Positions 13,699 through 54,200 are shown, numbered from the stretch's first letter. The stretch is 62,476 nucleotides of DNA from a virus (IMGVR_UViG_3300017788_000023:1-62476); one strand, 5' to 3'. The notes: generated by a model not told the origin, from the letters alone. Made by a program: numbers and translations.

Positions 13699-14376
13699 TT
13701 ATTTATACACTTCCATAAAGTATACCATAGTATGTCTTATATCGGTTATCCACCTATGACTTATTGCCGAAGCATGATATACAGAACCATCATATAAAAT
13801 TAATCTATTAAATTTTGCTGGTAAAAATCCAATTTTATCATTGTCTTCAGAATTTACCCACCCGCCAAGTGTATAATGTAAACCATGTTTCCTAAAAATG
13901 ACTGTACCATCATAGTCTTCATATTCTTTATTAAGATATGATATAGCAGCTATTACATTATCTCCATCAACATGTGGAGCATAAAATGAATTTTTATGTT
14001 TATTATAATATTCTGGAGTTGTGTTAAATAAATTATTTGCTATATGAAACAATCTTTCTTGTGAGATATCAACTGGATTTAAGTTAAAGCATTTTAAAAC
14101 TATATCTTCTAAAATATTTGTAAAAAATGGTTTTTTGTAAAAAACAAAATGAGATCTACCATCATAGTAATCTATTCCATTGTTAGCGTTATCATACGCT
14201 CCAGGTAATTTTACAGTTGGTGTTTTTAAAGCTAACTCATATATTTTATCAGGATACATCCAAAAATCATCAATAACTAAGTAATCCCCCCACGAATCTC
14301 TATAAACTTCAACGTTAAAATTATTTACAGAAAAAATATCTAGATCTATTATTTCTGGTAGATTTAAATTATTCAT
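13699..14376 (-). CDS. 2OG-Fe(II) oxygenase-like protein (DUF6445-like)
   Basis: This 225-residue protein carries an Fe(II)-binding triad: His135 and Asp137 in FYAPHVDGDN, followed by the strand AAISYLN, and distal His201 in YDGSVYHAS, with Arg214 (TDIRHTMVYF) as the likely 2-oxoglutarate carboxylate ligand. The layout resembles DUF6445-type members of the 2-oxoglutarate dioxygenase superfamily. The reading frame is open up to a TTG at 14400, but the ATG at 14376 overlaps the upstream stop as ATGA, so I choose that start. It is the last of four consecutive oxygenase-like genes. The substrate is unknown; hydroxylation of a protein or small molecule is the family reaction. Confidence 0.75.
   Translation of the reverse strand: MNNLNLPEIIDLDIFSVNNFNVEVYRDSWGDYLVIDDFWMYPDKIYELALKTPTVKLPGAYDNANNGIDYYDGRSHFVFYKKPFFTNILEDIVLKCFNLNPVDISQERLFHIANNLFNTTPEYYNKHKNSFYAPHVDGDNVIAAISYLNKEYEDYDGTVIFRKHGLHYTLGGWVNSEDNDKIGFLPAKFNRLILYDGSVYHASAISHRWITDIRHTMVYFMEVYK
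13700..13707 (-). promoter_or_regulatory. Perfect T4-type late promoter for the coiled-coil gene
   Basis: The minus strand reads TATAAATA 31 nt before the ATG at 13669, overlapping the stop of the oxygenase gene upstream. Confidence 0.7.
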
Positions 14377-14963
14377 ACAAATCTTGGTCCGACAACCCAA
14401 CCAACTAAAGATTTTCTAAGACCACTTTTTATTTTTAATACTCTATGTTTTAATGAACTATCAAATACTGTAATAACACCACGTTCTTTTGGAACAGTTA
14501 GTAATTCATTACTTGATGATGTTAATATTTGAACAGTACCACCTTCATATTCATCTGGATCCGACAATTGTAATATAAAAGAAAGCTTTCTTGTCATGCC
14601 ATTTGGATCTGGGCTATCAGTATCGTTATGCCAATTATAAAATTCTCCTTCCGTATATGTTGTATATTGTATAGTATTATCTTGAAATGAAGCGATATTA
14701 TATTGAAAATTATCTTTATTTGCTATATCTACAAAATAGTAACACAGAGCACCTATCCAAGTTGTTGTTGGAATAAATTTAACTTTACTTTTTCTTATAT
14801 TTAAATTTACACGATTACCTACTGTTCCATAATCTAAAGTATCTTCATTTACATCATAAGATCGTGGTAATTCATTTTCTATAATATCTACCATTTCTTT
14901 TGGAAGTCCAGTACTTACCCAATACATGTCAAATTTTTCTGTTACTGAATTAAATCTAAGCAT
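14373..14963 (-). CDS. 2OG-Fe(II) oxygenase, prolyl 4-hydroxylase-like (PKHD type)
   Basis: The 196-residue protein has a clear double-stranded beta-helix hydroxylase pattern: YNWHNDTDSP with His112 and Asp114, LSFILQLSDPDEYEGG after it, VFDSSLKHRVLKI with His173, and GLRKSLVGWVVGP with Arg183 as 2-oxoglutarate ligand. This is the PiuC/PKHD-type arrangement that I have seen in many cyanophages. Neighbouring genes overlap (4 nt downstream, 8 nt upstream), indicating one operon. The substrate is unknown. Confidence 0.9.
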   Translation of the reverse strand: MLRFNSVTEKFDMYWVSTGLPKEMVDIIENELPRSYDVNEDTLDYGTVGNRVNLNIRKSKVKFIPTTTWIGALCYYFVDIANKDNFQYNIASFQDNTIQYTTYTEGEFYNWHNDTDSPDPNGMTRKLSFILQLSDPDEYEGGTVQILTSSSNELLTVPKERGVITVFDSSLKHRVLKIKSGLRKSLVGWVVGPRFV

Positions 14964-15540
14964 CGCTTTTCTCCATGAAAGATTCTAATACATCTTGAAT
15001 ATAAATATCGCCTTCACTACCATCATATTGAAATACCATAGTCAATCTTCCTTGGGATTCAGATAAGCACGTAGAAGGTCTAGATCCGTGATATAAAGAT
15101 GATGGGGCAATAACAACTCTACCTGGCTTGGGCAAAACTGAAATTGTAAAATCTGGGTTCTCTGATTTAGAAAAATATGTATCACCTCCCCAGTGTTGTT
15201 CCCATTTAACATTTAAATATATTATAAAACTAAGCCCATGTGGGGTTTCATAGTTATCTCTGTGGGTGTCACAGAAATCTAATTGTTTAAATAAATTAAT
15301 TAATACTCTAGAAAAATTTGGAATTTTAAAAGGAAAACTTACTTGTAGTTTTTCCAAAACCAAATTTACCACCTCATCATCTTGTTCTGGAAAGGATGTA
15401 AAACTAACAATTCGATGTGTTACATCGCTAGTTAATCTATAATTTTCTAATTTATATGCCCAATTTTCTAAAAATTCAATTTCTTCTGGTAAAAAAATAT
15501 CATCTACAATAATAATATCTTCAATGTAATTAACTCTCAT
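14956..15540 (-). CDS. 2OG-Fe(II) oxygenase superfamily protein
   Basis: This 194-residue protein has FCDTHRDNYETPHG with His93 and Asp95, then LSFIIYLNVKWEQHWGGDTYF, APSSLYHGSRPST with His151 and GRLTMVFQYD with Arg165. Together they form the HxD...H...R signature of 2-oxoglutarate/Fe(II) dioxygenases. The N-terminus IIIVDDIFLPEEIEFLENW is a common family opening. It overlaps the next gene by 8 nt and follows the previous one by 5 nt. Function beyond predicted hydroxylation is not known. Confidence 0.9.
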   Translation of the reverse strand: MRVNYIEDIIIVDDIFLPEEIEFLENWAYKLENYRLTSDVTHRIVSFTSFPEQDDEVVNLVLEKLQVSFPFKIPNFSRVLINLFKQLDFCDTHRDNYETPHGLSFIIYLNVKWEQHWGGDTYFSKSENPDFTISVLPKPGRVVIAPSSLYHGSRPSTCLSESQGRLTMVFQYDGSEGDIYIQDVLESFMEKSDA

Positions 15541-15545
15541 AATTT

Positions 15546-16211
15546 TTATTCATTAAAACGACTATAAATGCTCCGAAACCATCCAGTTAAAATATATTTG
15601 TTTTTTGTAAATACTGTATTACCTCTATGTATATGAGTATAAGCAGCGGGCCAAAGAACAATAGTTCCAGCGGTAGGTTTAACTCTTAATTTTTGATGAA
15701 AAAATTCTGTTTCTGCTTCCCCATCAGGCATATCGTTTAGATAAATCATCCAGGTTACATGTCTGCTATTAAACCCTTGAGATGCGCCTATTCTTTCAGA
15801 GTGCCAAATATGATAACCACCACCAGGAGGTGTTCTCTGCATTTTTACTTCTGAAGATATCAAAGTTGTTGAAGTTAAGTCTGGATATTCTTTAGAATAT
15901 TCTTCGAATGCTTTTTGTAAATGTTCATAGCAAACGTCAGCTAATCCTTCATCAAGAATATTTAAATATAATGCAATATCACTTCTTCCAGTTTTACCTG
16001 ATTTAAATTGTTTATCTCCCAAAGATAACTCCACCTTGTCCTCTCCTGCTTCATCTCTTGACTCTTCTGGTAGAAGAGCATAATCCTGAGGAGATAAACC
16101 AAAATTCATTAATTTTTTATTCAATGTGAATTCAAACCATTTAATGTATTCTTCACACATTTCTATGGACATAGCATTTTCAAAAATTCCAATGTGATCA
16201 ATTATTTTCAT
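15546..16211 (-). CDS. 2OG-Fe(II) oxygenase-like protein with an H-x-E motif
   Basis: This 221-residue protein opens MKIIDHIGIFENAMSIEMCE and has GGYHIWHSERIG, with His137 and Glu139 in the place of the usual H-x-D, then HVTWMIYLNDMPDGEAETEF and LWPAAYTHIHRGN, holding the distal histidine (His193 or His195). It ends NKYILTGWF. I recognise the WHxE form from a family widespread in cyanomyoviruses. It is the first oxygenase gene of the four. A degenerate TCTAAATA upstream may be a weak late promoter. Catalysis is inferred, and the Glu ligand is used by some active members. Confidence 0.85.
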   Translation of the reverse strand: MKIIDHIGIFENAMSIEMCEEYIKWFEFTLNKKLMNFGLSPQDYALLPEESRDEAGEDKVELSLGDKQFKSGKTGRSDIALYLNILDEGLADVCYEHLQKAFEEYSKEYPDLTSTTLISSEVKMQRTPPGGGYHIWHSERIGASQGFNSRHVTWMIYLNDMPDGEAETEFFHQKLRVKPTAGTIVLWPAAYTHIHRGNTVFTKNKYILTGWFRSIYSRFNE

Positions 16212-17850: not shown

Positions 17851-20800
17851 TTACTTATTCTTTAAGGTTTCTACTTCTTGCTTCAATTCTTTAATCGCTT
17901 CAATTAACAGAGGAACTAATCTTTCATATTTAATTGCATAATAACCATTATCTCTTTGAGTTACAATTTCTGGTAATACTTCTAGAACATCTTGAGCAAT
18001 TACTCCAGCTTCTCTTAAAGTTTGATCCTTTCCTTCTGCCTTATCATTCCAGTTGTAAGTTACACCAGAAATCTTATCAACTTTATTTAGAGCATTTTCA
18101 ATAGGTTTAACATTTACTTTCAATCTGCTATCAGATGTGGCGAATGCAGTAATATCATCATTACAAGTGAAAGCACCTACATTGCTAATCGTAGCAACAT
18201 CTGTACCACCTCTACGGAATTTAACAACTTCGGCACTACTACTACCAGCATTAATATACCATCTGTTTGAATGATACTCTATCTTTCCTTCATTAGCAGC
18301 AGCATCTCCAGTCCAATTAGCAGTAGTATCTTGACGGAAGGAACTAGTTCCCCCTAGACGTAAAACACTATTTGTACCACTAGTGAATGTGAACTGAGCA
18401 CTGCCAGCAAGACTACCACTATTATTATATTGAACTTGTGTATTGGATCCTCCAATATCAAATAATGCCCACTCAAGACCAGAAGCAGTTGATTTAATAA
18501 ATTTACCAGCACCAGTATTTGCTAAGTAGGTAGTTACTCCACTTCCAGATTGATAAGGAACACTACCAGCAGCACCACCAGCAAGATTAGTGGCAGTTGT
18601 TGCTGTGGTTGCATTTCCTGTTAGAGCAGCAGTAATTGTACCAGCACTAAAGTTACCACTCGCGTCTCTAGCAACGATGTTTGTGTTACCACTTGAAGAA
18701 GCATTAACATTAATAGTTCTTGCTGTTCCTCCATCAAAGGTAGAACCAGAATTGTAACTTAAGAAAGTTCCTAGAGATAGAGCAGCAGCTGTAGAAGCGG
18801 TAATAGTAATATTAGCACTACCATTGAAAGATACTCCATTTATATTTCTGGCAGTTTGTAGCGTCGTGGCAGTAGTAGAATTACCAGTTAAATTAGCGGT
18901 AATAGTGCCAGCAGAGAAATTACCATTGTTATCTCTCTTAACAAGAGTATTATTAACATTTAATGTAGCAACTGGATTATTACCTGTGTGGAGAATAGTA
19001 TACTTAGTTGAAGTACCAACAGACCAACCACCCCAGAATAGATCATTGGTAGCACCATCAAGACCAAAATAACCAGCGTAATCTCCAGTTACATGGAATG
19101 TAAGGAAGGCATCTCGACCAACAGTATCATTTACAATTGTAAGTGTCTTATTACCAGTTCCAACACCTTGATCACCACTTTCAGTATTAATAACTACTTT
19201 GTTGCCAGCGAGAAGATTTAAATCTCCTGACATGGTATCGCCAGTTTTTAATACGTTTAGAGAAGCAGCTCCAGTTAACGTGGCGGTAATAGTACCAGCT
19301 TCAAAATTGCCAAGAGAATCACGCTGAACAGCGGTACTAGCATTGTTTAGTGCTGAGAAAGTAATATTACCTTGGTTCCAAATTATATTACTGTTTATAG
19401 AAACAGAGTTAGCATTTGATGCTAGAATGTTTAAAGAACCAGATCCATTTGTTGAGTTACCGCCAGAAACAGCAAGACGTACATTGTATAAACCAGCAGG
19501 AGAGCTACTAGATCTAAAATCAATTACTGGGACAGAAGCAGTTCCATCAGTTCTTCCAAGTGATAATCTAGCAGTTCCAGAAGACGATTCTAGTTTAGCA
19601 ACGTCAAATGTTCCAGCAAAATCACTGATATTATAATCATTAATAATTTCATTTGTTTGAGTATTACCAATTCTGAAAGCATCAACAATGTTACCAGAAA
19701 GTAATCTACCAGTTAAAATACTATAATCTAAAGTATCATCAATATTATTGAAAGTTGTTACATCAACAAGTTCAAAATCACCAACTTTAATACCAATAGC
19801 ATCAAACAAATCAATTGTTAATCCAGCAACAAATGGTGCTTCTGAAAGAATCTTGCCAGAAATATAGATGCTATAGAATGTTTGAGAAATATAATTTTTT
19901 ATAGTTAAGCTAGTATTGACTCTTGTTGCGTCTAAGAAAGAGGAAAGGTGAGAAGGACCAACAATACCAGAGTTAATATTATAACCATTTTGATAGAATA
20001 CACCTTGTCTGCCATCAAGTACGTCGGCGTCTAGTCCAGTGCCAACACCATCATTGATAGATGTCCAAACCTTTGCCCAAGAACCGAATGTCGAAACACC
20101 AGTTCCAGAACCACGGATCCACAGGTTATTGTTATCAGTGAAAGCAAGTTGCCTTACACCACCACCAGAAGCATCCGTAGAGGTTCCAAATTGTCTGTAT
20201 GTAATAACACCGTGCCTGACTCCACCATCAGAAAGACCGTCAGCAGTATTGTTTCTTGTATCAGCAACAATACCTTCATTAAATGTTGATGGTGAAGGAG
20301 AAGAAGATGGATTATTTACTTGAGTAACTAATCTTAAAGTATTAGCAGAATTCCCAGCAATATCAATACCATACAAACCGCTGCCTAGTTTATCTGGACC
20401 AATCGAAAGATTGATTAGATTTTGACCATCTCGGTAGAAAAGCCCTTGCTGACCATCAAGTAAGTCAGCATCAAGTCCAGAACCTGTTCCTGTCTTAAGT
20501 TCTATTGAACCATCGCCAGATGTTCCAATATTGAATTGTGATTTTTTGAATCTAGCAACACCAGTATTTCCATATTCATTTGCTGCGAGTGTCTTATCAT
20601 CAACACGTTTAATATCAATTCCTACATTAGCAAAATTCTTTACGCTAGTATTGACTTTACAATCTAAAACAGCATTAGCTCCAAAACCAAGAACGACTGG
20701 CATCTGTACGATAGAAAAATCTGCCGAATAACCAGTTCCTCCACTAGTCACTAAAACAGAAGTTATACTTCCTCCAGTAACAGTAATAATTCCTTTTAAC

Positions 20801-23800
20801 CCAGTACCAGTGCCACCAGATAAAGCGACATCAAAATAAACACCATCTGCATAAGAAGATCCCCCAGAAGTTATTATAACTTTATCTACAAAATTACTTA
20901 ATGTAAATGTAGAATCTAATAGAACAGGAGATTCTGGTCTATTAAATTGAATAACAGTATTCTGTGGAATCAGTTGAGTTACGGATGTTGAAAGAGTAAC
21001 AACTGTGAAAGAGACATTATCTACTATAGTCACAAATGTGTTTGCCACAGTTGTTCCTGCTGGTATACCAGGAGCAGTGACCTCATGCCCAATTAAAATA
21101 TTATTATTTAATTTAAATTTCAATACATTTTGACTATTAGATGTTTGATCTGTTGTAAAATCAAAATATCTTCGTTCTGCTGGTTTGATGGATTGTACAG
21201 CAGCAGCAAAAGAAGAATCTCCTCTTAAGAATGTGAAGGAGTTTGCTTCTCCAGCATTACCAGCAAGTCTTGAAGTTGAAATAATTCCTGATGTAATATC
21301 TTGGGCAGCAATTGAAGATGTTGAAAGAGATACCCAGTTACTTGCATTTGATCCAGATGTGTTTACAGTTCTAGTGACAGGAACTGTGACAGGAACTGCG
21401 TTGGTAGATTTAATTGTATCACTGTCAGTAATTTTAATATTATTAGCAATATCAATATAAACACGAGATTCAATTAACGCAACAGCTGTCGCTTGTGTTC
21501 CACCAACTCCAGGAGCAGAGAAAGTAACTGTTGGTGGTGTAGTATAACCAAATCCTCCAATATAATTATTGTTCGATACTATTTTTACTGTAACTACTTT
21601 ACCATTTACAACAGTACACGTAGCAGCAGCAGAAACTCCCCCAGATTGTTCTGGTGCAGTAATACTCACGGAAGGTGGAATTAACTCACTGTACCCAGAA
21701 CCTTGATTAATAATATTGATTTTGAATACAACACCTTGACGATATTCTGTTATTTCTCCTTGACCAGTAGAAACACTACCAGTTAGAAACTCACCTGACG
21801 CAAATTGTAAAGTAGTATTTACAGCAACAGCAACAAACTGGCTTTCTAAATCATTGTTTAAAATAAATGACGTAGTTGATCCAAGTTCGATAGCAATATC
21901 ACCAGCAAGTGGACCTTCTAAAGCAAGTCTTTCCGTTGTATTTTGAATTGTAAATACGTTGAATGGTCTTAGAGCTGGAATTTGATCTAGAGAAATCTTA
22001 CCAGAATCAGTAAGTTCTACAAGGTTTCTTGGAACAGCGTTAGTTGAATATGGTTTGTTAAGGTATTGACCTAAGTTATTTGAAATGTAATCCTTAATAG
22101 CTTTCTGCGTTGAAATTTTTGTGTCAGAAGCAAAGTTTCCTCCTAATGTATTTGAAGCATCAAATCCAGTAACAACAACGTCGCCACCTTTCAACTTAAG
22201 GAATTCAACTTCCGAGATCGAAACTGTACCAGTGAATGTAATATTACCAGTTCTGTTTTCAATCTTAGCAAAGTAACCTACTTTGAAGTCACCAAGTTCA
22301 TCAGTACCAGAAGTATAAACACGTCCATATTCTTGAGATACTTGTTCTAATGCTTCATTTTTAATACCACCATTTTCTGGGAGTGCTCTATAGTCGTTAC
22401 CAGATCCAGCATATTCCCATGTGTGAGAAGACGAGTTGACAATAGAGGGTCTGTGTAGACGAACTTGCTTACCTACAAGCTCAGCATTACCGACAGTGAT
22501 TGGTTGACCATTGCTCTTTCTCTTAAGCAGGATTGCCTCGTTAAGATCAATAGTTGAAGTAAATGGAGGACCAACTGTAGTTTGTCTTACTCCTTCAATA
22601 AAGTATTCAATATTAGAATTTTGGTTTTCGTAATCAGCAAATTTAACAATATAATGCTCAAGTGGTTCTCTACCAAGACCGCCAACTGTAAATACAGTTC
22701 TACCTGTAGCAGTTGTAGTAACATTGGTGATAGTTCCTATATCAAAAGAATATGGCTCTAACCTAAATCCTTTAGCTCTTAGAGCAAACGTACCAAAGTT
22801 TGTAGCAGAGTTTGTAACAGAAGCATAACCACCAGTATCAGCAAAGATACCATCTTGAGCAAATAGAACGAACACAGAAACTAACTGTGTGTAACCATCA
22901 TTTACAATTCTATAACCAGTCCCACCAAATGAAATGATAGTGAACTGGGCAGCAACCATTGACTTACCCTGATTTGGGAAAGTAGCTTTGGGCGCAGCGG
23001 ATCCAATTGCTGGATTTAGACCAGGGCGAGGGCAGTTTGGTTGTCTTACTTTATCACCATCAATCTCACAACCGCCACCACCAAGGAACGAAATTACAGA
23101 AGCGTTTTGAATGTATGGTGATGCTTCAATAAATGGTAGATCTGCCCAGGTGGCATCTATGCTAACTCTCTTATTGTCAGCATCATAAATTGTATTTTCT
23201 GGATATACAACTGTTGGATTATAAAGAGTTCCATAACTCTTAGTAACTACACTACCATTTGCTAAGATATCATCTAAAATAGCAAATGATGTTGTGATTG
23301 CTGTAGCAACATTAGCACATGTTGGAGTATTTGGATCAACAATAGTTGTCGAATCAATAAATTGTGGAGCAGTAGCAAATTCTGGAACAAAAACAGGACC
23401 AGTGCCATTACCTGTCTTCCAATTTCTCATAGCAAGAATAGCTAAATCTCTTACTTTTATAAATGCCTGTCTAGTAGGTAGTATTTGATCTGCTGGGAGT
23501 CCTGTTAGAGCATTTCCAGTGTAATAAGATTCTCCAGCAGTAACTATTCCAGCGTTGCCTCCAAGAATTAAATCTCTTCTAAGTGCTCCAAGAATTTTTC
23601 CGATGTCTCTACGGCATTTTGTTGTTGTGGTAGTTAAGAAAGAACCTTCATTAACAGTAGGAAGTGAATTAAGATTACCCGCAGAAATAGCAGTAGTAGC
23701 AATAGCAATAAGAGTACCAATGCTATTACGTACATCAATACAAGATTCTGAATTATTATTATTGTTTAGTTCTCCTTGAGTACCAAAACCAAAACCTGGA

Positions 23801-26800
23801 TTTGTTGGTAGATATCCTGGGTTTGGATCTCCAGTGATTGTTAGATCTTTTGCGTATAACTGATTGGTTACAGCTAATCTCATCACATCTCTAGCCTTAT
23901 TAAAAGCAGTGATAGATTGAGATTCTTCGTTTACTAATCCGTTTGAAAGTGGAATTGTATTGGTTATAAAATATCTCTTGACAGCTCTAATTATATTCTT
24001 ATTACCACCGTCATAAAGGTCAGAAGCAACAGCATCAACAATGATACCAATGTCTCTACGGCACTTACTTTCGCCAGCAATATAAGTAGTAACAGTTTGA
24101 GCGGGAAGACCAGTTAAATTACCAGCAGTAATTCTGTCAGTAATCAATACAGTTGAGTTGACTATTGCTGATTGTATGTCAGAACAAGCGGTAGAAGATG
24201 TATTAGGTACGACTCCTCCTCCACCACCAAAGTTAGCAGGACCAGGAGTAACAGTGAGATCCTTGTAGAACAAACCGTTAGTAACGGCTTTTTTCATTAC
24301 ATCTCTTGCTTTGTTAAAAGCAACTACAGATTGTGCTTCTTCATCTACTAATCCATTACTAATAGGAGCGTTGTTATTAAAATATTGAAGAACAAATTTT
24401 CTTGAATACTTATTACTTCCAGAGAAAAGATCTAAAGAAACAGCATCAACAAAAATGCCCAAGTCTCTGCGGCACTTAATATTACCACTTGCTTTTCTTA
24501 CAGCAGGAAGACCTGAGGTATTACCAGCTTGAAGTGTGGTTGTAAGAATAGCAATAAGGGTGCTAACAGCACTTCTAACATTAGCACATGAAGATTCGCT
24601 AGTATTTGATAGTGTATTAGGATCTGCTGTGATGGTTGTGTCCTTAACATATAATTGATTTGTTAGGGCTCTGTTCATCCAATCTCTTGCTTTGTTAAAA
24701 GCAACTACTGATTGACTAATTTGACCTGCCAATCCATTTGATAGTAGAGTAGTGGAATTTGTAAAATATCTTAATGTGTGATCAATAATTCTTGAGTTAC
24801 CGCCTGTTTGGAGATCGTAAACAATAGCATCAACAATGAGTCCAATATCTCTGCGGCACTTAGCTTCTCCAGCAGGAGTTACACTTTCGCCAGTAGTAAT
24901 TACTGGAAGAGCATTAGTGCCATTGATATCACCAGCAAGTATTCTTGTCTGAGCAATAAGTGCTAATGTTTCTATTGCTATTTGTACATCAGCACAAGCA
25001 GCAGCATTTCCTGATTGTAAAACAGGAATGTTGGGACCAGGAACTCCATATGTAGCAGTGCTAGAAGTTATGGTAAGATCTTTGATAAGAAGTTGGTTAG
25101 TTATAGCCTTCTTCATCATTTCAGTTGCTTTGGTAAAAGCAGTATCAGATTCGAGTTCTTCCCCAGCTAATCCATTGACAATTTTAATACCAGTTTGTGG
25201 ATTGAAGTATAATTTAGTAAATGCTACAGTAAATTGATTTCCTCCATCATAGATGTCTAGACCAATAGAATCAACAAATAAACCAATATCACGCTTACAT
25301 TTTGCTTCGCCAGGAGTTACAAAAGAATCTCCATTTGTTACGGTTGGTAAAGCATTATCACCATTAATATTACCAGCAGTAATTCTAGTAGTAACCAGAG
25401 TGGTTAATGTTAATAACGCTGCTTGAACATCAGCACAAGCTGTTGGATCAGTATTAGAAACTATCGCCCCTCCTCCACCAAAATTAGCAGGACCAGCAGT
25501 AATACCGAGATCCTTATATGCTAATTGATTGGTTACTGCTAACTCACATTGTTCTCTAGCTTCATTGAAAGCAAATACTGATTGTGCTTCTTCGCCAGAT
25601 AAACCATTAGAAATAGCAATACCACTTCCATCAAAGTACAGTTTAATAAATCCAATTGTATATTGATTTCCTCCAGTTATCATGTCAAGAGAAATAGCGT
25701 CAACGAAGAGACCAATATCTCTCTTACACTTATTGATATCCCCTCCAGGAACAGTGAATCCAGGGAACTGTGCTTGCGTTGAATCAAAAGCAGCATTAAT
25801 AATTTGTGTTCTGTTCTTCTGAATTAAACGATAACCATCTTTAAATCTAGATCTAGCATTAGTTTGAGCATCCCCAGGATAGAAGAAATCGGGGTGATCA
25901 ACAGCAATTTGTGCTGCTCCTGTATCGATAATTTGTTGGCGATTCTGTTGAATTAATCTATAACCATCTTTAAATCTAGATCTAGGTCCAGTTTGTGGAT
26001 CACCAGGATAGAAGAAATCAGGGAACTGAATAGCAATTTCAGCGGCAGCTCGTACCTTGATTTCTTCTTTATTAGCTCTAATTAAATCAACAGAATCAAG
26101 ATATCTGCTTTGATAATCTCTATTAACATTTGGTAGACCAGTTAAGTTACCAGCAGTTAATCTAGCAGTAATAATTGCTGTTAAGTTAGAAATATAAGTT
26201 TGAATATCAGAGCAAGCAGTGGAATCAGTATTTGGTACTGTAGCTACACCAGAAGCATAAACAGCAGACCCAGGAGTGACCGTTAGATCTTTAGCAAACA
26301 ACTGGTTGGCGACTGCTAACCTCATTTGATCTCTTGCTTTATTGAAAGCAGTATTCGACTCAGCAATTTCATTAACCAGACCATTTTGAAGTAGAGTTGT
26401 GGGACTAGTAAAATATTGCTTTAAGAAATTAATAGAATTTGAATTACCACCTAAGAATACGTCAAGAGATATAGCATCAACAAAGATACCAATATCTCTC
26501 TTACACTTAGCTTCTCCAGGAGGAACAGTAGTTGATACTGATTCAGCAGGAAGACCAGTTACGTTACCAGCAGTAATTCTATCAGTAATAATTAGTGTTA
26601 AACTTGTAATAGCAGTTTGAACATCTGAGCAAGCAGTAGAATTAGTATTACTAACATTACCGCCCTCGCCATAATTAGTAGGACCACTAGTGACAGTGAG
26701 ATCTTTGATTGTCAGTTGGTTAGCAACTGCCTTTTTCATTTCATCTCTTGCTTTATTAAAAGCAAGAACTGATTCTGCTTCTTCTCCTACAAGACCATTT

Positions 26801-29800
26801 GTAATAGGAGTGCCATTATTGAAGTATGAAAGAACAAATTGACGACTGTATACATTTCCGCCAGCTTGAGCAATGTCTAGAGATACAGAATCGATGAAGA
26901 TACCAATGTCTCTTTTACACTTAGCTGTATTTGTTGCGTTGATGACAAAAGATGGGAACGCAGGAGCAATTGCGGCAAAAGCAGTATCAATAATTTCCTG
27001 TCTATTTAATTGTATTAATCTATAACCATCCTTAAATCTAGATACAGCAGTTGTCTGAGCATCTCCAGGATAGAAGAAATCTGGATGCTGAACAGCAACT
27101 TGAGCAGCAGCACGATCAATAATTTCTTGTCTATTTTGTTGAATTAAACGATAAGCATCAGCATAACGTGAACGCTCATTAGTTTGTAAATCACCTGGGT
27201 AGAAGAAATCAGGGAACTGAACGGCGACTTCAGCAGCAGCTGTATCAATAATAGTTTCTTTGTTTTTTTGAATTAGACGATAAGCATCGTTGTATCTGCT
27301 TTGAGCATTAGTTTGTGTATCTCCAGGATAGTAAAAATCTGGATGCTCAACTGCTACTTCTGCCAAAGCACGATCAAGAATCTCATCTCTATTATCTCTA
27401 ATCAGATTAGTAGAATCTTTGTATCTAGCAGCAGAAGGAAGTGGACTTAAGAATAATTGAGGAAAAGCATCTTCAATATATCTTGAAGCTTCTTGTTTAA
27501 TAAATTCTTGGTTTCTAGCAATTAAATATCCAGATTCTACAAATCTATCAATTTGATTATTAGAAATAATAGCAAGGAATGTATCTGCTAAGTTATTGAT
27601 AGCAGATGCTACGTTAGCACAATAAGGCCAAACAGGATCAAGTGTTACATCTGGGTCAAAATATCTATCTACATTAGAAAATTGTGGATTATATAAAGCT
27701 CCATATTGATCAAGTCTCCAACCTCTCATTGCTAGGATAGTAAGATTCCTGGCAATATCAAATGCTCTAATTGTTTCTGAAAGTTCTGTAGCAATATAAC
27801 CAACACCAGTTCCTATAACATAATACTTAGCAGCTTCAACGGTGTTATAGTTGCCACCATACTCCATATCACGAACGATAGCATTTACGAAATGACCAAT
27901 ATCTCTAATACACTTTGCTTCATCTGGATTAGTAAATTCTGGAAACTCAGCAATGGTTTGCTTATAAGCTTCGTCCTTGATGAACGCAAGATTATTGGTA
28001 ATTAAATTTCTAGCATCTTGATATCTTCTAGCAATATAAGGAGTTTCTTCAAATTTATTGGGAGAGTTTAATAATGATAAAGTTACATAATATGAAAAAT
28101 GGGATACGGTAGCACCAGATGGAGCAAAATTACTATCCGTAAATCCAGGCATGTTATCTTTAGGAATAACAAATCTTCTGGATCTTGAGTCGTCATCAAT
28201 TAGTACTCCAGTTTTATCTAAATCATAAATTCTTTGAATACCATTTAAGTTTGCTAACGATGCTGGCAAACCAGAAATGAATACTTCCTGCCCTTCATGA
28301 AAATCATGAATATTCTCTACGCCTTGTAAATCGTTTGTGTAGAAAATAATACCACCAACTTGAGCTTGTTGTGAACCATCAATTCTAGAAATAGGTATAG
28401 TCTTTGTAACATTAGTACCAGTATTAACAACTTCACCTTCTGCTCTAATAGAAGATAAACTTACAAGTGTAAACTGAAATTCTCTCGCCCAATTAGTTCC
28501 ATTCCAAGTGTAAGTAATACCATCATTTGGATGAATATATGTATCTCCAATTGCAGGAGTTGATGGCCATCCAGTATAGTCTACAGGAGCTTCGATATAA
28601 TAACGAGCACTTTCTCCCTGAGCAAAAACACCAATTGAAGTTTCGAAATCTACTGATCCTTTTTGATATGCAGTTGGACCTGTAGTAGTATTAAACGTTA
28701 CTGTTTTAATAATTCCAACGGCGCTGGAGTTGACACCATTAATTGTTTCGCCAGCAACTAAAGCATCTAAACCACCGTTAAAATCAAAAGTAGATCGGAA
28801 TAAAGCCTTACCAAAAATTTGGTGCCCAACTGGGAATCTTCTTTTGAAATCACCGCCATAAGTTTGATTGTAATAAATTCTCTGTTTATCATCAAATGAA
28901 CAGGCAAACTTCCACGTAGAAACTGGATTTCCAGAAGTATCTAATTTATCCCTAAATGTTATTCCACTGATATAATTTTTATCAGCAAATTTAAACATGT
29001 CTTTGCCAGGATTATTCGGTCTGACTAATACAATACGCAAAGAGTCACCGACAACTGAACAATCTGGGGGGATAGAAATTGGGTTGTCTTCCAAATAATC
29101 GCCACCAGCAATAACAACAGTTTCTTTTATATTCGTAGATTCTGTTGCTAATTGGCAAGCGCGTTTAATAGTTCTTACTGGAGAAGCAACGGATCTACCG
29201 TCGTTTTGATCATCACCGATTTGCTGTGAAACATAGATTCTACCACCAACGTCGTTGGTAGCAAGGTTTAATACGTATTCGGTGGTAGCAATTTTAGTTG
29301 TATTATCTCCTAGTGGTGGAGTAATACTTCTTGGCCAAGATAGTTGACCGTAATAAGGTTGAGTTGGATCATCAACTCTAAAACCAATATGATCTAATTG
29401 TACTGTACCATTTAAGGCTTGACCAGTCCTGTGAAGTGGAGGAAATGCTCCAGTGATTCCAGTATTAAGTGCTCGATAAACGTTAGATTCAAAATGTCTA
29501 ATTTGATTTTTTGCTAACGAAACATTAGCAACCCAAACTTGCTCAGAATTATTATCAAATACTTTTAAAGAAGGCGCACGTATATTAAGATCTGCTGTTA
29601 CAAAATTTCGTAGGTCAAGATTTAAAATTCTTGCTGTATCAGAAATAATTGAAGACGATGTTCTGATAGCACCATTAACATCAACTTCATATTCAATAAT
29701 ATCTAAAGTACAAGTTGCTGCCGCACCTGCCCCAGTAGTATCTCCAACTGCATTTTGAATTGTAATTGTAGGAGCACTAGTATACCCAGATCCTGGATTT

Positions 29801-30129
29801 GAAACAACAATAGCAATTACTCTTCCATTTGAAAGAATAGCAGTAGCAGTAGCTTGAATAGCACCAAGAACAGCTGGAGGAGGAGCAATTTCTATAATCG
29901 GTGGACTGGTATAACTAGCACCTTGTGACGTAACAGTAATAGTATCTACACGACTTCCAGTTCTATTAATACCAATTCTTGGTAATTTTGTATTGGGATC
30001 AATTGAAGCTCTAAAAATTTCTTTTTCTTCTGATCCTTGCCCAGATCTAATTATAAAATTATCACTCCCGATAATTTTAGGTGTATTAGATTTGATGTAC
30101 TGTTTATCAGAATTAAATTCTAATCCCAT
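17851..30129 (-). CDS. Giant modular tail fibre protein with C-terminal S74 chaperone domain
   Basis: This is a 4092-residue fibre protein. Residues about 60-130 hold two GSGYTSxP beta-repeats. Residues about 295-420 start a pectate-lyase-like beta-helix ([20 protein letters not shown], then [10 protein letters not shown]). Residues about 735-2300 consist of nine C-x-RD(I/L)G...GGN modules plus five 43-residue FYPGD repeats. Residues about 2900-3950 hold fibre repeats (LDADLLDG, [13 protein letters not shown]). The C-terminus, from [16 protein letters not shown] (near residue 4000) through [14 protein letters not shown] and [17 protein letters not shown], is a peptidase S74 intramolecular chaperone, which in known members cuts itself off N-terminal to the conserved Ser after trimerisation. 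The gene uses one late promoter (30182-30189). A host-recognition fibre is the likely role; the receptor is unknown. Confidence 0.92.
23595..27920 (-). repeat. Nine CxRDIG modules in the giant fibre
   Basis: On the plus strand the word CCAATATCTCT(C/G)(T/C)(T/G)(A/G)CACTT recurs with variations near 23600, 24055, 24465, 24845, 25290, 25715, 26490, 26910 and 27900, encoding KC(K/R/I)RD(I/L)G. Most units are about 130-145 codons long and hold a second conserved Cys (C(S/A)DVQ), an AFNKAR block and NQLxxKDLTVT. The copies are clearly diverged, so this is an old expansion kept by selection and not a recent duplication. Confidence 0.8.
25865..27345 (-). repeat. Five 43-residue FYPGD repeats in two blocks
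   Basis: Copies of DF(F/Y)YPGDxQT followed by SR(Y/F)xDxYRLIQxNRxxII are encoded with a 129-bp period near 27065, 27194 and 27322, and again near 25873 and 26002. Two CxRDIG modules and intervening sequence separate the two blocks. Each repeat looks helical with a Tyr-Pro-Gly-Asp turn. Confidence 0.8.
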
Positions 30130-45290: not shown

Positions 45291-48200
45291 CTAGTTCGTA
45301 GTTCTTAGGTAATCTCCAATAGAATGAGTCTCTACGACACCATTTACTGACCTAATTACACCCATTAATGTTAATCCAGTTTTACCTGTATATGATATAA
45401 CTTCTTTTCCTATTCTAATGTAACCACTAGATGGGAATTTAGATAATGCTGTCAATAAACCGTCTACAGTTTGTACAGTAAGCGTTGTACTTGTAGTGGT
45501 CATATCTGTATTTAATATAGCTCCAGATTCAGATATTGATGGATATCCAGCATTATAATAAACTCCAGTTGAAAGATATGAAGTAAAATTACTTAAACTA
45601 TTTTGTTCAAAATTAGATAAAATTAGCGGACCATACTCAAGTTCGAGTTGTTGTATTGTTACTCCTCCATAAGGAACAGTACCAGTATCCATAAATTTCC
45701 ATGACTCAATAGTAGATTTCCTATTTCCAGCATTTCCGATAGTGTAGCTATCATAGTCAGTGTTGTACCCAATAGATGAATTTGTTACAAGGATAGTAGT
45801 ACCTCCATTTAAAGTAATAGTGTTTATTGGGGGATCTAACACTACAAAAGTTCCTGCTCTAGTAAGAACAAGACCATCCAACACTACATTTTCAATATAG
45901 AAATCTATTATTCCTGTCTTATAGAATTTTTCTACAGCAACTATTGTCTTAGCAACTGTTGATTCGATTATGTTTGTATGTGTTACAGTAGAAATAATCT
46001 CATTTGTAATCCCAGTAATTGTACCTAAATCAACTATTTTTTGTATATAAGATTCAACTACGCGAATATTTAAAACATTAATTACCGAATTACTATTAAT
46101 ACTGGTGTTAGTAGTAAGAGTAATTTCATCACCAATCGAAACAATATTTGGATTAGTTATTTGTTGAGTAACCGAAATAATATCAGCAACAGATCCTGAT
46201 TGTAGTGAAACTGTACTAAAACTAACTTGATCTCTAGTAATAGCAAGTTCTGTAGAAACATTAATTACTGAATTAGTGAAGATCTTATCTTGAATTACTA
46301 AAGTAATTTGATCACCAACCAAAACAATATTTGGATTAATTATTTTTTGAGTAACTGAAATAATATCAGCAACAGATCCTGATTGTAGTGAAACTGTACC
46401 AAGACTAAATTGAGAACTAGAAACAACAATTGCTGTAGAAACATTAATTACTGAATTAGTAGAGATCTTATCTTGAGTTATTAAAGTAATTTCATCACCA
46501 ATCGAGACAACATTTGGATTAGTTGTTTTCTGTACCGTAGTAATAATGTTAGCAACTGATGCAGAACCAGTTTGTATAGATCCTACAGAAATTATCTCAG
46601 ATGTTGCTCCTGCTCCAGCAAGACCAGCAGAAACAATAGTAACGTTTTCTCTGTATTGCCTTACGAAAGATCCTGCATCGTGAGTGCTAGGACTGGTTCC
46701 GTCAACACCTCTAAGCGCACCAATAAAACGATCAGATAGTTTACTATTATATCTGATAATTTCGCCACCAATCATTAATCTACCAGAAACAGTAAATTTA
46801 CTAGTATCTGCTATGTAAATAATCGAGTCAGTTTTTGACAATGGTGATTGTAAATAAGCACCAGTATCATATAAAGCAGGATAGACTGGACTTTGAATTA
46901 GTTTTAAGAAACTTCTTGCGCTAATCAGAATCTCTCTTAAAGAATCTAGTATGGTTACTGTAGATTCTTGTTCAACTTTCTCTATTCCTGATTCGATAGA
47001 TCCAGAAATAAAAGACAATCCAGATAGAGAAGTAATTTTAACTGGTCCAAGTTCTAGATAAATCTGGATATCTGCTTTTGGTTGTTTAGCAGGTATTGTT
47101 ACTTTATCTGATAATAGTATAGTGGCAGTAATGAAAATATCACGTTTGGCAATAGTAACTGGAGCAAATCTTTCGATATAAACAATAGGTGGTTCTGCGT
47201 CTGTACTAAACGAAGCTCCTGATGTAATAACTAATCGATTTGATAAAACTAATGGAGTAAAGAAATTAGTAATAATTCTGTGATGGGAATTTTTCTTTGA
47301 TTTCTTAACATAGTATCCTCTAGTGATATACACTTTAGGAGGAGTTTCATATCCACTACCACCATCAGTCAGTACAACATCAATTGGTTCTCCGTTGTGA
47401 ACCACAACATAACCACTAGCACCACCGCCAGCCGCTGGAGATATAATACTACCACCCTCATCTTTTAATGCTTGTGGAACAAAATTTAATCTAGGAGCAT
47501 CTTCGTAACTATATCCAGCTGGTCTTGGTAAAATTCCTTTAGATTCGTATTTGCCATAATCTTTTTGATTCCATATCAGCGAAATAACTTGTCCGTATGT
47601 TGGAGAAGTGATGTTAGTATCAATATTACAAACGATATCTAATCCTTCTCCTAACTGAATGCCATTATAATTTGTGGTTGATATTTTACCAAGATATCCT
47701 GTAGTTACATCTGCTGTTTCTCTATACTCTGTTTTAATTACTTCAGAAGGTATAGATAAAATAGTTCTATATTCATCTTCGCCATCAACTTTAATTTGAT
47801 CATCTGGAGAAAGAGCATTCCAATAATTTGGTTCTCTAGACGAACCAATTAACCACCCAGTAGTAGTTTTTCTTAGAATATCTAAAGTTTCCTCAGTTTC
47901 TTCAAAATATGCAGTTCCGCCAGTAACTGATAGTGCTTGACCTATTGCGTTAATAGATGCCAATGGAATAATTACATCTCCACTTCCATCTACTTTACCG
48001 TCAATACAAGTAATGTTTTTTGTTTTAACAAATTTTTTGTTCTGTGTTTCTAACGTAAGTGTTGTAGTAATATAAACAATGGTAGCTGTTGTAGAAACAG
48101 TAGTAGATGTAGAGGAAGTAGGTTGAGGAGCAAAAGGAACTTGATATTTAAAAGAATCTAGTGTCAAATCAAATGGCAGTATAAAACCAACAGACGTATT

Positions 48201-51200
48201 AAATTCATCAATAGGAGAACCAAATACTCTAATTTCTTGCCCAGCACGTAATCCATGTGGAGAAGATGTAGTTACTGTAACAGTTGTACCACTTGAAGTA
48301 ATTGAGGAAACATTTAATGGAGTTTCTTTTTTGTCATATTTTTTAATTGTCCCATCAGCAGTATTTGTTTCATAATTATTTCCTTGAAAACAGAGGATAT
48401 TTGTAAATTGTACTAATTCGGGATTATAATTTACTTCAATTTCAATTCTATTCAAATAATCATTATGATCAAAATCAAACATTGTTATAAATTTAACACT
48501 ATCTCTACCATATAGGTACACAATATTAATTTTTTGACCAACTCTAAGTGGTTCTATAAAGGAAATATTAGATCCTCTAATAGTATATGATTTTAATCTT
48601 TTTTGTAATACTTCTTCAACAAATACTAATACATTTCTATCGTCGTCTACGGAAACAGTCTTCCCTGTTGTTGCTGATCTTAGCGTAAATGGACCCGTAA
48701 ATTCGTTATCTACATATTGCTCGTCAATTTTTAGTCTTTCATACGCACCAACATTGTGAGCAAAGAATGATTGGTCGGATTTATTGAATATTTGATTTGC
48801 TGAAGTTTGTTCAAATTTTCTAGGAGCTTCTAGGAATACAATTTCATTAGGTGTGGTTGTTCTTTTAATATAATATGCTCTATCCTTTGGTAATAATGGA
48901 GTTGTTCCAGATCTTTGAATAACGCCATCTATAGATACAATTAAATTGTCGCTACTTGGTAACGACTGTACTGGGGTGTTATCTTCATAATACAATTGGA
49001 ATGAGGTTTTTACGTTGTCAAATTGTGATGATATATCTTTAATCTTTTTAAAGTTTTGAGTATTTAAAAGAGAATCTTTGAATTGAATTGATCTGCCAAT
49101 AAAATCTTGAGCTGGTGTGTCTACTCCCGTAACATATGATCTGAAATTATAGTCAACAAAATATGAATTTGTATTAACACTATATCCATCAACAAGAATA
49201 CTAGAATTAAATGGAGATATTCCATTTAAAATATTACCATTGTAAACAGACGAAAGAACTGGTAATAATTTTCCTACTGGTTCAGCAGTTACATATCTAT
49301 TACCAATAATTACCGTTCCAACAACAGCGGAAGAAATAGTGCCAGAAATTGTGATAGTATTATTTGAAAGGTTTATTCCTTGAAGACCAGACCCGTCTGG
49401 AATTCCATTACCACTAATAGCTAAACCAGCACTGTTATTATTCAATCCAGTGGTATTTGATAATACAACTGTAGCTGTATTGTTACCAATATTATTGACA
49501 AAAGAAACTACATTGTAAAATCCTCCCTGAACTCCTTTATCAACTATTTTATATTTTCCAGATAATTCAGTGGCAATAACACCTGGAGTTTTAAATAATG
49601 AAAATTGTCTAGTTGAAGTGGTTGTGGTAAATTCTTGCCCCACAACAAAATATGACAAGTCTAATTGACCTATTACAGCATTAAATCTTATTTTGTAGAA
49701 AGAAACAGGATTTATTGCGGTTAATGAATCATTTCCATAAGAACCAGTAGAAAATCTTTTACCTAGTGGTGCCTCACTAAATGTAATAGTTGAACCAGAT
49801 ACCGTATATGTTGTTTGGGGTTCTTGAATAATACCGTCTAAAGAAATAAACAGATTATTTACATTAGAAACATTTAATAGTGAATTAGACCCTTTTATTT
49901 TCATATTGAATGATTTTGTTCCTGCTCTATTTCCACTCTCATCAATATATCCATTAAATACTGGATCTAAGTAAAATTCATATGAAATAGTTTCAGAAGT
50001 ATCAAATGGAGCAATATAAGCAGAACCTTTACCGCGAACTTCGTTAACATCTTTTACTTTAACGGTAGTAGTTGTAATTAATCTTCGTGTACTTTCTACA
50101 GTAACTCTATTTTTTTGAGGATCCCACAGTTGTACAAAACTTACTTTTTCTTGAGTTACTGGGTCTGGTTTAAATTCAGCTGATGCTTTAGTGTTTATTT
50201 CTACTTCACCAAATACTTTAAATCCAGCTGGGTGTGTAGTTTTAACAATTAAATTACGCCAAACATCAATTGGTGTTTTTGATTTAATAGCGTAAGAATA
50301 ATCCTGATAGAAATACGAGTCAGCAATTTTTTGAGATTCTGATCCAATATTTGACCTATCTGAAGCATACTTTCCTAAATTGTCATAATATGATTTAATT
50401 TTAGGTGAAAAAATAGTAGCAAATATTTTTATAATAGTTGCTGTTTTATTTTGTGATTTTCCTATAATTGGCAAATCTAATCTAAAAATTCCTTCAATGG
50501 ATTGTAAACGTAAAATATTACTACCAATTTTCCATCCCTCTTTGGCAACTTTTCCTTTTGCGATTAAAATATTGCCATCATATTGAACTATTTCTTCGTC
50601 ATCAAGAAATGCGTTAGGTACAAAATTTTTAAGTGTTAAAATTTGTACAGAAGAATATTTTTTTGAAATTGATTGGTCTCTATTAAAATTATAACCATTA
50701 CTTATAATTTTAACACTTTTTGGTGCCCCTATAGTTTTGCTTGAAAAATATGCAGTCAAATCAGTTTCTACAATTTTAATTTCTGGTTGGTATGAATAAT
50801 TTTTACCTTTATTTGTTACTAAAATTGCCGTTATTTCCCCAAGGGAATTTTTAATTACTGAAAATTCAGCTAAAGAACCATCACCACTAATTAAAACTGC
50901 TTTTGGTTTAGAATAATTTCTTCCAGGAAAAATAACTGATACAGAATCAATAGTTTTTGTTGTAGAGTTCCATATAGGTTTACAAATAGATTCTAAAGAC
51001 ACTGAAGGACGAACACCAGTTACAACTGGGATTTTTTTAAATTCTTTACCTGGATTTGATATTGAAAATGAATTAATATTACCAATAGCTGAAGAAGATG
51101 TAGTAGTATACGAAATAGTTCCCGAACCATCATATAACGAAATATCTTGTAATTCGTAAACAAATTTTGTTGGGGTAACGTAAGTAATTGTTTTTGTTCC

Positions 51201-54200
51201 CTGTAGAGGATCATCAATAGTTCTTAGATATGATTTATCACTATTAATAATATTATTTTTATCGAAGTAAAAATAATTTGTATATTTAATTTCTTCTTTT
51301 GTAGAAGAGGTTTCATAAAATGAACCAAATCCAAATTTAACTTCAATACAAGATCCAACAGATCCAGGTTTTTGAATACTTTGATAAGTTTCTAATGTTA
51401 AAATATTGTAATTTCCGCTAGGAGAAAATTCTAGAAAACTACCAACTAGTGTAACATTACTCGTATCAAACTTATATTTGTAATAACGTTGAATATCAAT
51501 GATTGGGTTTCTGACCCAATTTCCAGAAACAATATTCTGTTTAGAAAATTCAAACTGATATTGCGCGTCCTCTATAATTTTGTTAATGGTTACTAATTTT
51601 TTAGGAGATGATTGATCAAAAAAAGTATAATTTAAATTAACTCGTTGAATAGTTTCTAGAGAAGCAGTTAGATCATAAACAACCGTCAATATTTGATTAA
51701 CTGCATCATAATTTTGTACTATTCCCGAACCTAAAACAGTTCCAATTTCATATTGATTTGCTAGATTATATTTTGATTTGTATAACAAAACTGGTTGGGT
51801 GTTATAATGATCTATTGCTGTAGTAGATTCTTGTGCTCTTACTACTGTTATAGAATTATTATTAGAATTAATCCCAGTAACTTTTAAAATTTCTTTTCCA
51901 ATTTTTATTAAATCATTTTGAGATAATCCTTCAACTTTATTTACTTTTAGAGTTGTTTCTGAAAAAGAAAACCCAACGTGGTCTACGTCAGCAACAAAAA
52001 ATCTAGTGCTGGTCGAATTTGTAATACGCTGTAAAGAGGAATTAGAAAAAGTTACCGAATCTCCTTTTTTGTATCCTACTCCTTTTGAAGTAATAACAAC
52101 ATTAGATACTAATCCAGAAGTAACAGTAACTGTAGCTTTAGCATTACTAGAACCACCAATATTTCCCAATCTTGCTGCAGGATTTGAAGAGCCTACTATT
52201 CTACCTTCAATATCTCTACATTTAGTCTGGTCAGAAAAAATAATTTCTACGTTAGTATATGTCTGACTTGCTCCATTAGCATAATCAGCACCGCTATTTA
52301 AAACATTTAATCTTCCGATACCAGTATCAAAAATAGTAGTATCAAAAGAAGGAGGATTTAATTTTACTTTTTGATAAATTCTTTTTCTTACATAATATGT
52401 TGTTGTAGTAATAGCATCATTTGGAAAAATATTAACATTTACTAAATCACCTTGCGCTAAATTATGGGGAGTGGTAGTAGACGCAATAGCTATATTATCA
52501 TTCAATTTAAAAATTTTAATATTTTTGCTTAATTCATTTATTTTAGAAATTCTTACGCCAATTGTGTCAGTTCTAGTCGAACTAATGAGGAAGTAGTCAC
52601 CATCTACTACAAATTCTCCTTGAGTTACTTTACATTTAATATTATTTTTATCTTCAGTAGTTTCTAAAATAAGACCTCGAGCTTTTTCACTAACCGCAAT
52701 AGAACTTGGGTTATTTGTATCTGTTAATGATATCAAAGAACCAGTCGGAGTAGCAGAAATTTGGAATGAATTGATAGTTCTGTTTCTGACATAATAAATG
52801 ACATCAGCAGTAATTCCAGAAAATGTGTTTGAAAAGACAATAGGTTCTTGGTTTACAAATGGATTTGAAGAAACATTCAATACATTATTTGCAACATTAC
52901 TAATAATAGTTTGTTTTCCGTTAGTTAACTTTAAAATAGAATTAGATGTAAAATTAGATGATTTATTAACGATTAAATTAATAACTTGAATTGATGAATA
53001 TAATTTATCAACTAAATTAAAAGTACCGCTGATGTTTCTCAGTACAATATTACTGCCATCAAAAACATCACCAATAATTTGCCCACTTGCGTTAGTATTT
53101 TCTTGATATAAAATATCATCCTTAAACAAATACGCAGTATTTTCAATTTGTAATTGAATTGCTTTAATTTGTCTATTTTCTATAGATGTAACTGATTTTC
53201 CTTTTACAGAAGATACTTTTGCTACAATACCACTGCCCGAAGTTCCCGAATTATCTACTTCTACTAAATTGCCAACAGAAAAATTATCGTGACTGCTGAA
53301 AACATCTAAAGAAGACACTGAACCCGAATTAATTTCATCAATAAAAAATAATTCTTCTTTTCCGTTGTCAGGAATATTATCCGTTCTTAATCTACTTACT
53401 ATTCTTGGTAAATCATCTTGTGAAATCTTTTTACTGTAATTAGAATCAGTTGGAACCGAATAAAAATTTTCTCCCAAAACATAAGGAAATACTGGGATAT
53501 CATTAGAATTGACTGTTAAGAAATACGCATATACTCCATCTGGATATTCTGGTGTTACACAAAATCTTCCGTTATTTTCGTCTAGAGTTCCTAAACGATG
53601 ATTATAACGATAATCTTGGATAAAATATCCCAAAGGATATGTTGAAACAGGCGGTCCGTCAATTCGGTTATTCTTTAATTCATAACTACTAATCATCCGT
53701 ACAATCTGAGTTGTATTATCTTTAGGATCAGTAAAACCATATGGACCATAAATTGGATTGCCATCATAAGCATATCCTAGAATTTTTGAATGCTTTAATA
53801 CAGGTGAAGTAGAGCCATTTGGTTCTAAATTATCACCCAAAGAAATTCTAAGTGCTTTTGGATTCCCCAAGTATGCGTATCCATATCCAAGAGCAGGATT
53901 GATATTTTCAAAGAAATATCCATTATTAGAATCTAATTGATTGTAGATATTTACATATCTATTCTTTTTCCATCTCTTAACAGATGCTACAGCAGTTGCT
54001 CCACTTCCTACTGAAACAATTTTAACTTCTATATTTTCTTGAGTGTAAAACTTACCCTCATCTTCTTTAATGAATCCAGTAATTTTTCCATCATTTGAAA
54101 TTGTGCTTTTAAACCTAGCAAATCTACCTTTCCCAAGTTTATCAACAATTACAACTTCTGGAGCTGTTGAATAATATTCTCCAGGATTAGTTAATTTTAG

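Follow-up and report, generated by a model that had tools for sequence, protein, structure and literature searches.

The viral contig IMGVR_UViG_3300017788_000023 (positions 1-62476; this whole stretch of 62,476 nucleotides is hereafter called the window) raises the question which fold is repeated nine times in one of its proteins, and what purpose is served by the two cysteines of each repeat. The protein concerned, P0001, is encoded by a single open reading frame (ORF) of 4092 amino acids on the minus strand (17851-30129). It matches the tail fibre profile phrog_5342, carries an S74 intramolecular chaperone at its C-terminus (Pfam) and is surrounded by a T4-like structural cluster of baseplate and virion genes (gp6, gp8, gp25, portal, sheath and terminase), and with these three characters it belongs among the tail fibres of T4-like cyanophages.

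An earlier, sequence-only reading of the window had described nine cysteine-containing units in this fibre, regarded their fold as not described and suggested disulfides or metal binding for the cysteines. The repeat itself is borne out here, as a unit with two conserved cysteines in a phage structural protein. Its fold, as judged from sequence profiles and a structure model, is almost certainly phycobiliprotein-like and resembles the beta subunit. Phycobiliprotein-like modules in a cyanophage tail fibre are a known fold in a new setting; they suggest that abundant marine phages recruited a fold of the photosynthetic antenna into their tails. Within the open-access library searched, no paper or annotation was found that names such a domain in structural proteins of phages.

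Predicted phycobiliprotein-like fold of the units

Only two Pfam families were found on P0001, namely Phycobilisome (PF00502, 2.2e-26) and the S74 chaperone. Unit 4 by itself scores above the PF00502 cut-off (24.0 bits against 22.2), three of the nine single units match, and in a control scan the family was detected in one of 14 control genomes, that of the cyanobacterium. When a profile of 73 units was searched against PDB sequences, the best 60 matches were all phycobiliproteins (best 5.7e-4), with the strongest similarity over helices B-E and about 60 residues covered well by sequence alone. Comparison with profiles of cyanobacterial beta and alpha subunits gave scores of 41 and 52, against a maximum of 16.9 for 30 column-shuffled beta alignments and 11.2 for a reversed alignment; a chance motif is ruled out by these shuffle controls.

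The AlphaFold2 model of unit 4, calculated with an alignment (window 25345-25872), consists of six helices (pLDDT 89.2, pTM 0.88). The globin-like core A-B-E-F-G-H, for which only unit 4 was scored, is present in this predicted structure. All 50 matches listed by Foldseek were phycobiliproteins, nearly all of them beta subunits, and VIA-align superposed the model on beta subunits with Z 17.8 and 2.1 Å over 141 residues at about 15% identity, a Z-score above the range noted by VIA-align for models without a clear relative. Among the matches listed by both programs only phycobiliproteins occurred and other globin-like families were absent, which does not exclude the latter. With these superpositions an undescribed fold is ruled out, and on this point the sequence-only reading does not hold: its proposal to predict the structure of one unit and of a tandem pair led, with unit 4, to a phycobiliprotein-like fold, an outcome which that reading had itself named as refuting an undescribed domain.

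In comparison with the beta subunits of C-phycocyanin and phycoerythrin (PF00502), the phage unit shares the predicted helices A, B, E, F, G and H, the C-x-R-D helix with the chromophore cysteine and a second cysteine at the start of helix H. It differs in the lack of helices X/Y, a shorter B-E loop, a longer G-H loop, the many repeats per protein and the lack of helices A/B in most copies of the window. A convergent resemblance, in which a helical repeat of other origin would have arrived at a short C-x-R-D helix motif, would fit the concentration of local similarity in about 60 residues and the low overall identity of about 15%. Since the superposition extends over the whole domain including helices G and H, the column-shuffled controls score far lower and the module is confined to cyanophages (see below), we consider convergence extremely improbable.

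Arrangement of the units in the fibre

By profile search the nine units occupy 23251-28029 (i-Evalues 1.5e-21 to 4.5e-64), slightly wider than the 23595-27920 given before, and the count of nine CxRDIG units in one 4092-residue fibre is confirmed, each with both cysteines (Cys1 and Cys2, in protein residues below).

27553..28029, minus strand: unit 1, helices A/B present, diverged; Cys 740 and 837; i-Evalue 9.4e-44
26560..27042, minus strand: unit 2, helices A/B present; Cys 1071 and 1167; i-Evalue 4.5e-64
26143..26523, minus strand: unit 3, confined to helices E-H; Cys 1209 and 1306; i-Evalue 2e-43
25366..25851, minus strand: unit 4, helices A/B present, modelled with AlphaFold2; Cys 1468 and 1565; i-Evalue 1.6e-63
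24928..25317, minus strand: unit 5, confined to helices E-H; Cys 1611 and 1712; i-Evalue 3.4e-36
24517..24873, minus strand: unit 6, confined to helices E-H; Cys 1758 and 1848; i-Evalue 1.4e-41
24115..24492, minus strand: unit 7, confined to helices E-H; Cys 1886 and 1982; i-Evalue 6.4e-44
23671..24081, minus strand: unit 8, confined to helices E-H; Cys 2023 and 2130; i-Evalue 1.8e-38
23251..23634, minus strand: unit 9, confined to helices E-H, diverged; Cys 2172 and 2271; i-Evalue 1.5e-21

A two-helix A/B block of about 40 residues precedes only the three units with Cys1 at 740, 1071 and 1468; the remaining six begin at the Cys1 helix. Extra tandem copies of this block, free of the rest of the unit, were observed at P0001 residues of about 700-1460:

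27454-27546, minus strand: weak lone A/B block; i-Evalue 0.13
27310-27426, 27190-27300 and 27061-27171 (overall 27061..27426), minus strand: three lone A/B blocks in tandem before unit 2; i-Evalues 1.5e-6, 4.9e-9 and 1.9e-9
26005-26109 and 25861-25980 (overall 25861..26109), minus strand: two lone A/B blocks before unit 4; i-Evalues 1.1e-4 and 7.3e-8

Position of the cysteines

The cysteine pairs of the units account for 18 of the 28 cysteines of P0001. In the alignment of the nine units Cys1, the lysine before it (-1), arginine (+2), aspartate (+3) and Cys2 are invariant, in the contexts KC(K/R/I)RD and C(S/A/I)(D/N)(V/I). Of the motif blocks attributed to all units, KC-x-RD and the second cysteine occur in all nine; AFNKAR and NQLxxKDLTVT are confined to units 2-8; units 1 and 9 are diverged and share 31% and 23% identity, respectively, with the reference unit. 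With the proposed search of metagenomic phage proteins 690 units were obtained from 84 viral ORFs of public viral contigs, up to 19 per ORF, whereby a nine-copy oddity of the window alone is ruled out. In the 180 units left after reduction at 80% identity, Cys1 and the aspartate at +3 are each conserved in 98%, Cys2 in 97% and the arginine at +2 in 84%; because both cysteines are so widely kept, the unit is not a product of chance.

Cys1 (C49 of the model) lines up with the chromophore cysteine that is conserved in helix E, in the PDB profile matches as well as in the profile comparison, and this cysteine with its C-x-R-D is kept in all nine units of the window. Cys2 (C146) pairs in the global profile alignment with the cysteine of GDCAALYSEAATYFDKAA in CpcB, residue 153. 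Independently of this, the structural alignments end at model residue 165, corresponding to residue 172 of the phycocyanin beta subunit and 177 of the phycoerythrin beta subunit, and C146 would therefore fall on residues 153 and 158, respectively, if the last helix is ungapped; these we take to be the second bilin cysteines of the two subunits. By sequence and model, the cysteines of the unit fall on both bilin sites, beta-82/84 and beta-153/155, the register of Cys2 being that of two agreeing alignments, the profile and the structural ranges, rather than of a measured superposition.

That the two cysteines within a unit form a disulfide or bind a metal, as proposed in the sequence-only reading, would agree with their joint conservation and with copies that have lost both. 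It is nevertheless very improbable, and the proposal is not supported, for the cysteines align with two separate bilin-attachment sites, neither a CxxC pair nor a conserved histidine nor another conserved metal ligand of the usual kinds is present, and one orthologous unit has retained Cys1 after the loss of Cys2.

Distribution in phages and in the virion

At E 0.01 a tblastn search with a single unit gave matches in 348 of 50,697 phage records. They are all named as cyanophage or as phage of Synechococcus or Prochlorococcus, except for one single-cell record named 'Marine virus'. By sequence similarity, and within the collection searched, the module is restricted to cyanophages. In the genome panel no module was found in T4, pelagiphage HTVC008M, two cyanopodoviruses, one cyanosiphovirus, S-TIM5, Ma-LMM01 and S-CBWM1; related modules occur in S-PM2 (13 matches), S-WAM2, P-HM2 and others. 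The window protein thus stands among the T4-like cyanophage tail fibre and baseplate proteins (PHROG 5342, 4527; T4-GC969), whose module-bearing members are annotated as tail fibre, virion structural or hypothetical proteins, with the domain unnamed in those seen. The module of S-SM1 is located in SSM1_102, annotated as T4-GC969. Purified S-SM1 virions have been shown to contain T4-GC969 (PMC3037559), therefore a module protein is part of the particle.

Association with the bilin lyase gene cpeT

Phage CpeT and cyanobacterial CpcT are T-type lyases (PF06206), a class that serves the beta-153 position (PMC10452541). Among complete genomes cpeT was found above cut-off in 19 of 21 with the module and in none of 12 without it, S-ShM2 being scored positive through a match that is weak (23 bits with neighbours) and is backed by a published table. 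The association (Fisher 2.6e-7; 0.0012 in T4-like cyanophages alone) is indicative only, since the phages are related and the second panel, nine genomes in all, was picked mainly for module matches. The count excludes two records that are incomplete. One, a fragment of 115 kb, has the module and no cpeT; the other, of 155 kb, has cpeT and no module, and apparently lacks the region of the module gene of its relative ACG-2014b. For a larger unbiased sample contigs with portal genes were considered, few of which were near genome size, so that few records were added. The two exceptions are S-SKS1, in which no match was obtained, and ACG-2014f, with cpeT below cut-off though annotated as CpeT-like; at 154422-157173 of ACG-2014f this annotated gene is close to one annotated as ferrochelatase, away from the fibre genes.

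In a published comparison of 16 genomes cpeT was missing from P-SSM2, S-SM2, S-SSM7 and Syn1 (PMC3037559, Table 3). The first three are exactly the module-negative ones among these genomes, Syn33 lying outside our panel. As an observation apart, Syn1 (NC_015288) has an annotated cpeT at 19938-20462, unlike in that table. The genes for heme oxygenase and bilin reductase (ho1, pebS) do not track the module, whereas cpeT does, and bilin synthesis genes are thereby ruled out as its partner.

In many phages cpeT is also encoded just upstream of the module fibre. At all 20 metaviral cpeT loci with sufficient downstream sequence, a multi-module fibre starts 0.5-2.1 kb downstream on the same strand. 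Several of these loci are near-duplicates, and the search extended no further than to near relatives of S-PM2 cpeT. The same order was found in S-PM2 and S-WAM2 and, by position, in S-RIM32, Syn1, S-RIM44, S-CAM1/3/4, S-RSM4, S-H9-1/2, ACG-2014e/i/j and the Sf phages; cpeT and the module gene are separated by tens of kb in P-HM1/2, Syn9 and other phages. CpeT is proposed here as an enzyme partner and is no part of the fibre. The S-PM2 protein matches CpcT (4o4o) and a short 'Antenna protein' (5hi8) in the PDB, the latter presumably linked to a study of the P-HM1 lyase. Work by Gasper from 2017 reportedly found that this lyase binds phycoerythrobilin tightly and does not transfer it to the host beta subunit, an outcome that, if so, would fit a different natural acceptor.

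Proposed function and alternatives

Homology, predicted fold, cysteine positions, restriction to cyanophages within the collection searched and the co-occurrence and synteny with cpeT are shown here, and the following scheme would join them. A phycobiliprotein-like domain would presumably have been taken from the cyanobacterial host and then multiplied within virion tail fibre proteins. Linear tetrapyrroles such as phycoerythrobilin would be attached covalently to the units during virion assembly, Cys2 being loaded by the phage's own CpeT and Cys1 possibly by a host or phage lyase, with bilin supplied by the host or by phage HO1, PebS or PcyA. The pigmented tail might respond to light, most plausibly in that adsorption becomes light-dependent, a light-driven change of the chromophore favouring adsorption in the light.

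The first part of this scheme, a fibre that would act as bilin acceptor and be loaded at least at Cys2, is the reading we prefer, with about an even chance of being true. The further step, that cyanophage virions would be photoreceptive, with CpeT-loaded bilins on fibre and baseplate modules whose response to light gates adsorption, is speculative and on present evidence improbable. Cyanophages have been classed by the light dependence of their adsorption (PMC7238727), and of two phages of the same host P-HM2 does not adsorb in the dark and P-SSP7 infects in the dark (PMC7112961). The genome search detected module and cpeT in P-HM2 and neither in P-SSP7. S-PM2 is said to be among the light-dependent phages in work by Jia from 2010, and P-SSM2 presumably belongs to the dark-adsorbing class.

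Several observations weigh against the interpretation as bilin-bearing phycobiliprotein-like units. Helices X/Y, which in phycobiliproteins serve alpha-beta pairing, are absent, the model starting at about beta residue 28 with helix A as its first helix, and for this reason the unit is called phycobiliprotein-like and not filed as a phycobiliprotein proper. Six of the nine window units are devoid of helices A/B and may form perhaps only part of the domain; in the tandem model (pLDDT 85.7) the second unit comprises four helices, and its search returned phycobiliproteins again, but none with E below 0.001. Concerning the cysteines, P-SSM4 possesses cpeT, yet has three modules without either cysteine, the arginine at +2 is replaced in diverged copies, some copies lack both cysteines and the orthologous unit mentioned above lacks Cys2. 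S-SKS1 keeps both cysteines and has no cpeT match, and no cpeT is present on the contig of the window, a partial record. P-SSM2 and S-SSM7 possess heme oxygenase and bilin reductase without module or cpeT, therefore their bilin genes have another use there. The co-occurrence of cpeT and module is partly shared ancestry, and the correlation with light comes from two phages with checked sources.

These points lend some weight to the view that the fold is a rigid helical spacer or adaptor without bilin, its cysteines serving packing or disulfides formed after release, with CpeT acting on host phycobiliproteins or as a bilin chaperone and its co-occurrence due to ancestry. The modules of P-SSM4 and the other copies without cysteines demonstrate that the fold is viable without them, units truncated to helices E-H occur, and the cpeT neighbourhood may be ancestral in related phages. 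Such a spacer would leave unexplained why both cysteines are conserved in 97-98% of units at about 15% identity to phycobiliproteins, why they sit at bilin sites and why cpeT, and not pebS or ho1, tracks the module; moreover, the cytoplasm, in which phages are assembled, is usually reducing. We regard the spacer as a serious contender, somewhat short of an even chance. If a bilin is attached, it might also be for a use other than sensing, such as stabilising the fold, quenching photodamage caused by sunlight, or storage. This shares all evidence for attachment, and chromophores of light-harvesting phycobiliproteins are generally not photoswitches; light-dependent adsorption in the module-bearing P-HM2 speaks against it, and nothing more specific does, so that a non-sensing use seems possible, if rather doubtful.

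Should bilin be found on the modules, virus particles may carry a light-absorbing pigment on their tails and potentially represent a new kind of virion, bearing chromophores. The role of phage cpeT 'remains unresolved', as one piece of the 'mystery' surrounding bilin genes in phages (PMC3037559), a puzzle that includes phages of Prochlorococcus, a host without intact phycobilisomes. If true, bilin attachment to the fibre and its response to light would join the retention of cpeT, this mystery and light-only adsorption in one testable hypothesis (PMC3037559, PMC7112961, PMC7238727), in which an auxiliary metabolic gene carried by phages may be of use to the virion itself instead of host photosynthesis.

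Neighbouring genes and further observations

Downstream of the fibre gene, at 13699-16211 on the minus strand, lie four adjacent 2OG-Fe(II) oxygenase-like genes, one of them weakly so, with a match to DUF6445. In S-PM2 a 2OG-Fe(II) oxygenase gene sits between cpeT and a module fibre. RefSeq places 16 tRNA features within the module-bearing short tail fibre gene of the same phage (NC_006820, 165928-177267), overlapping the module matches, possibly through a coordinate shift in the annotation. At 45291-56186 on the minus strand the window contains a further long ORF of 3631 amino acids with a YHYH domain and a baseplate wedge match.

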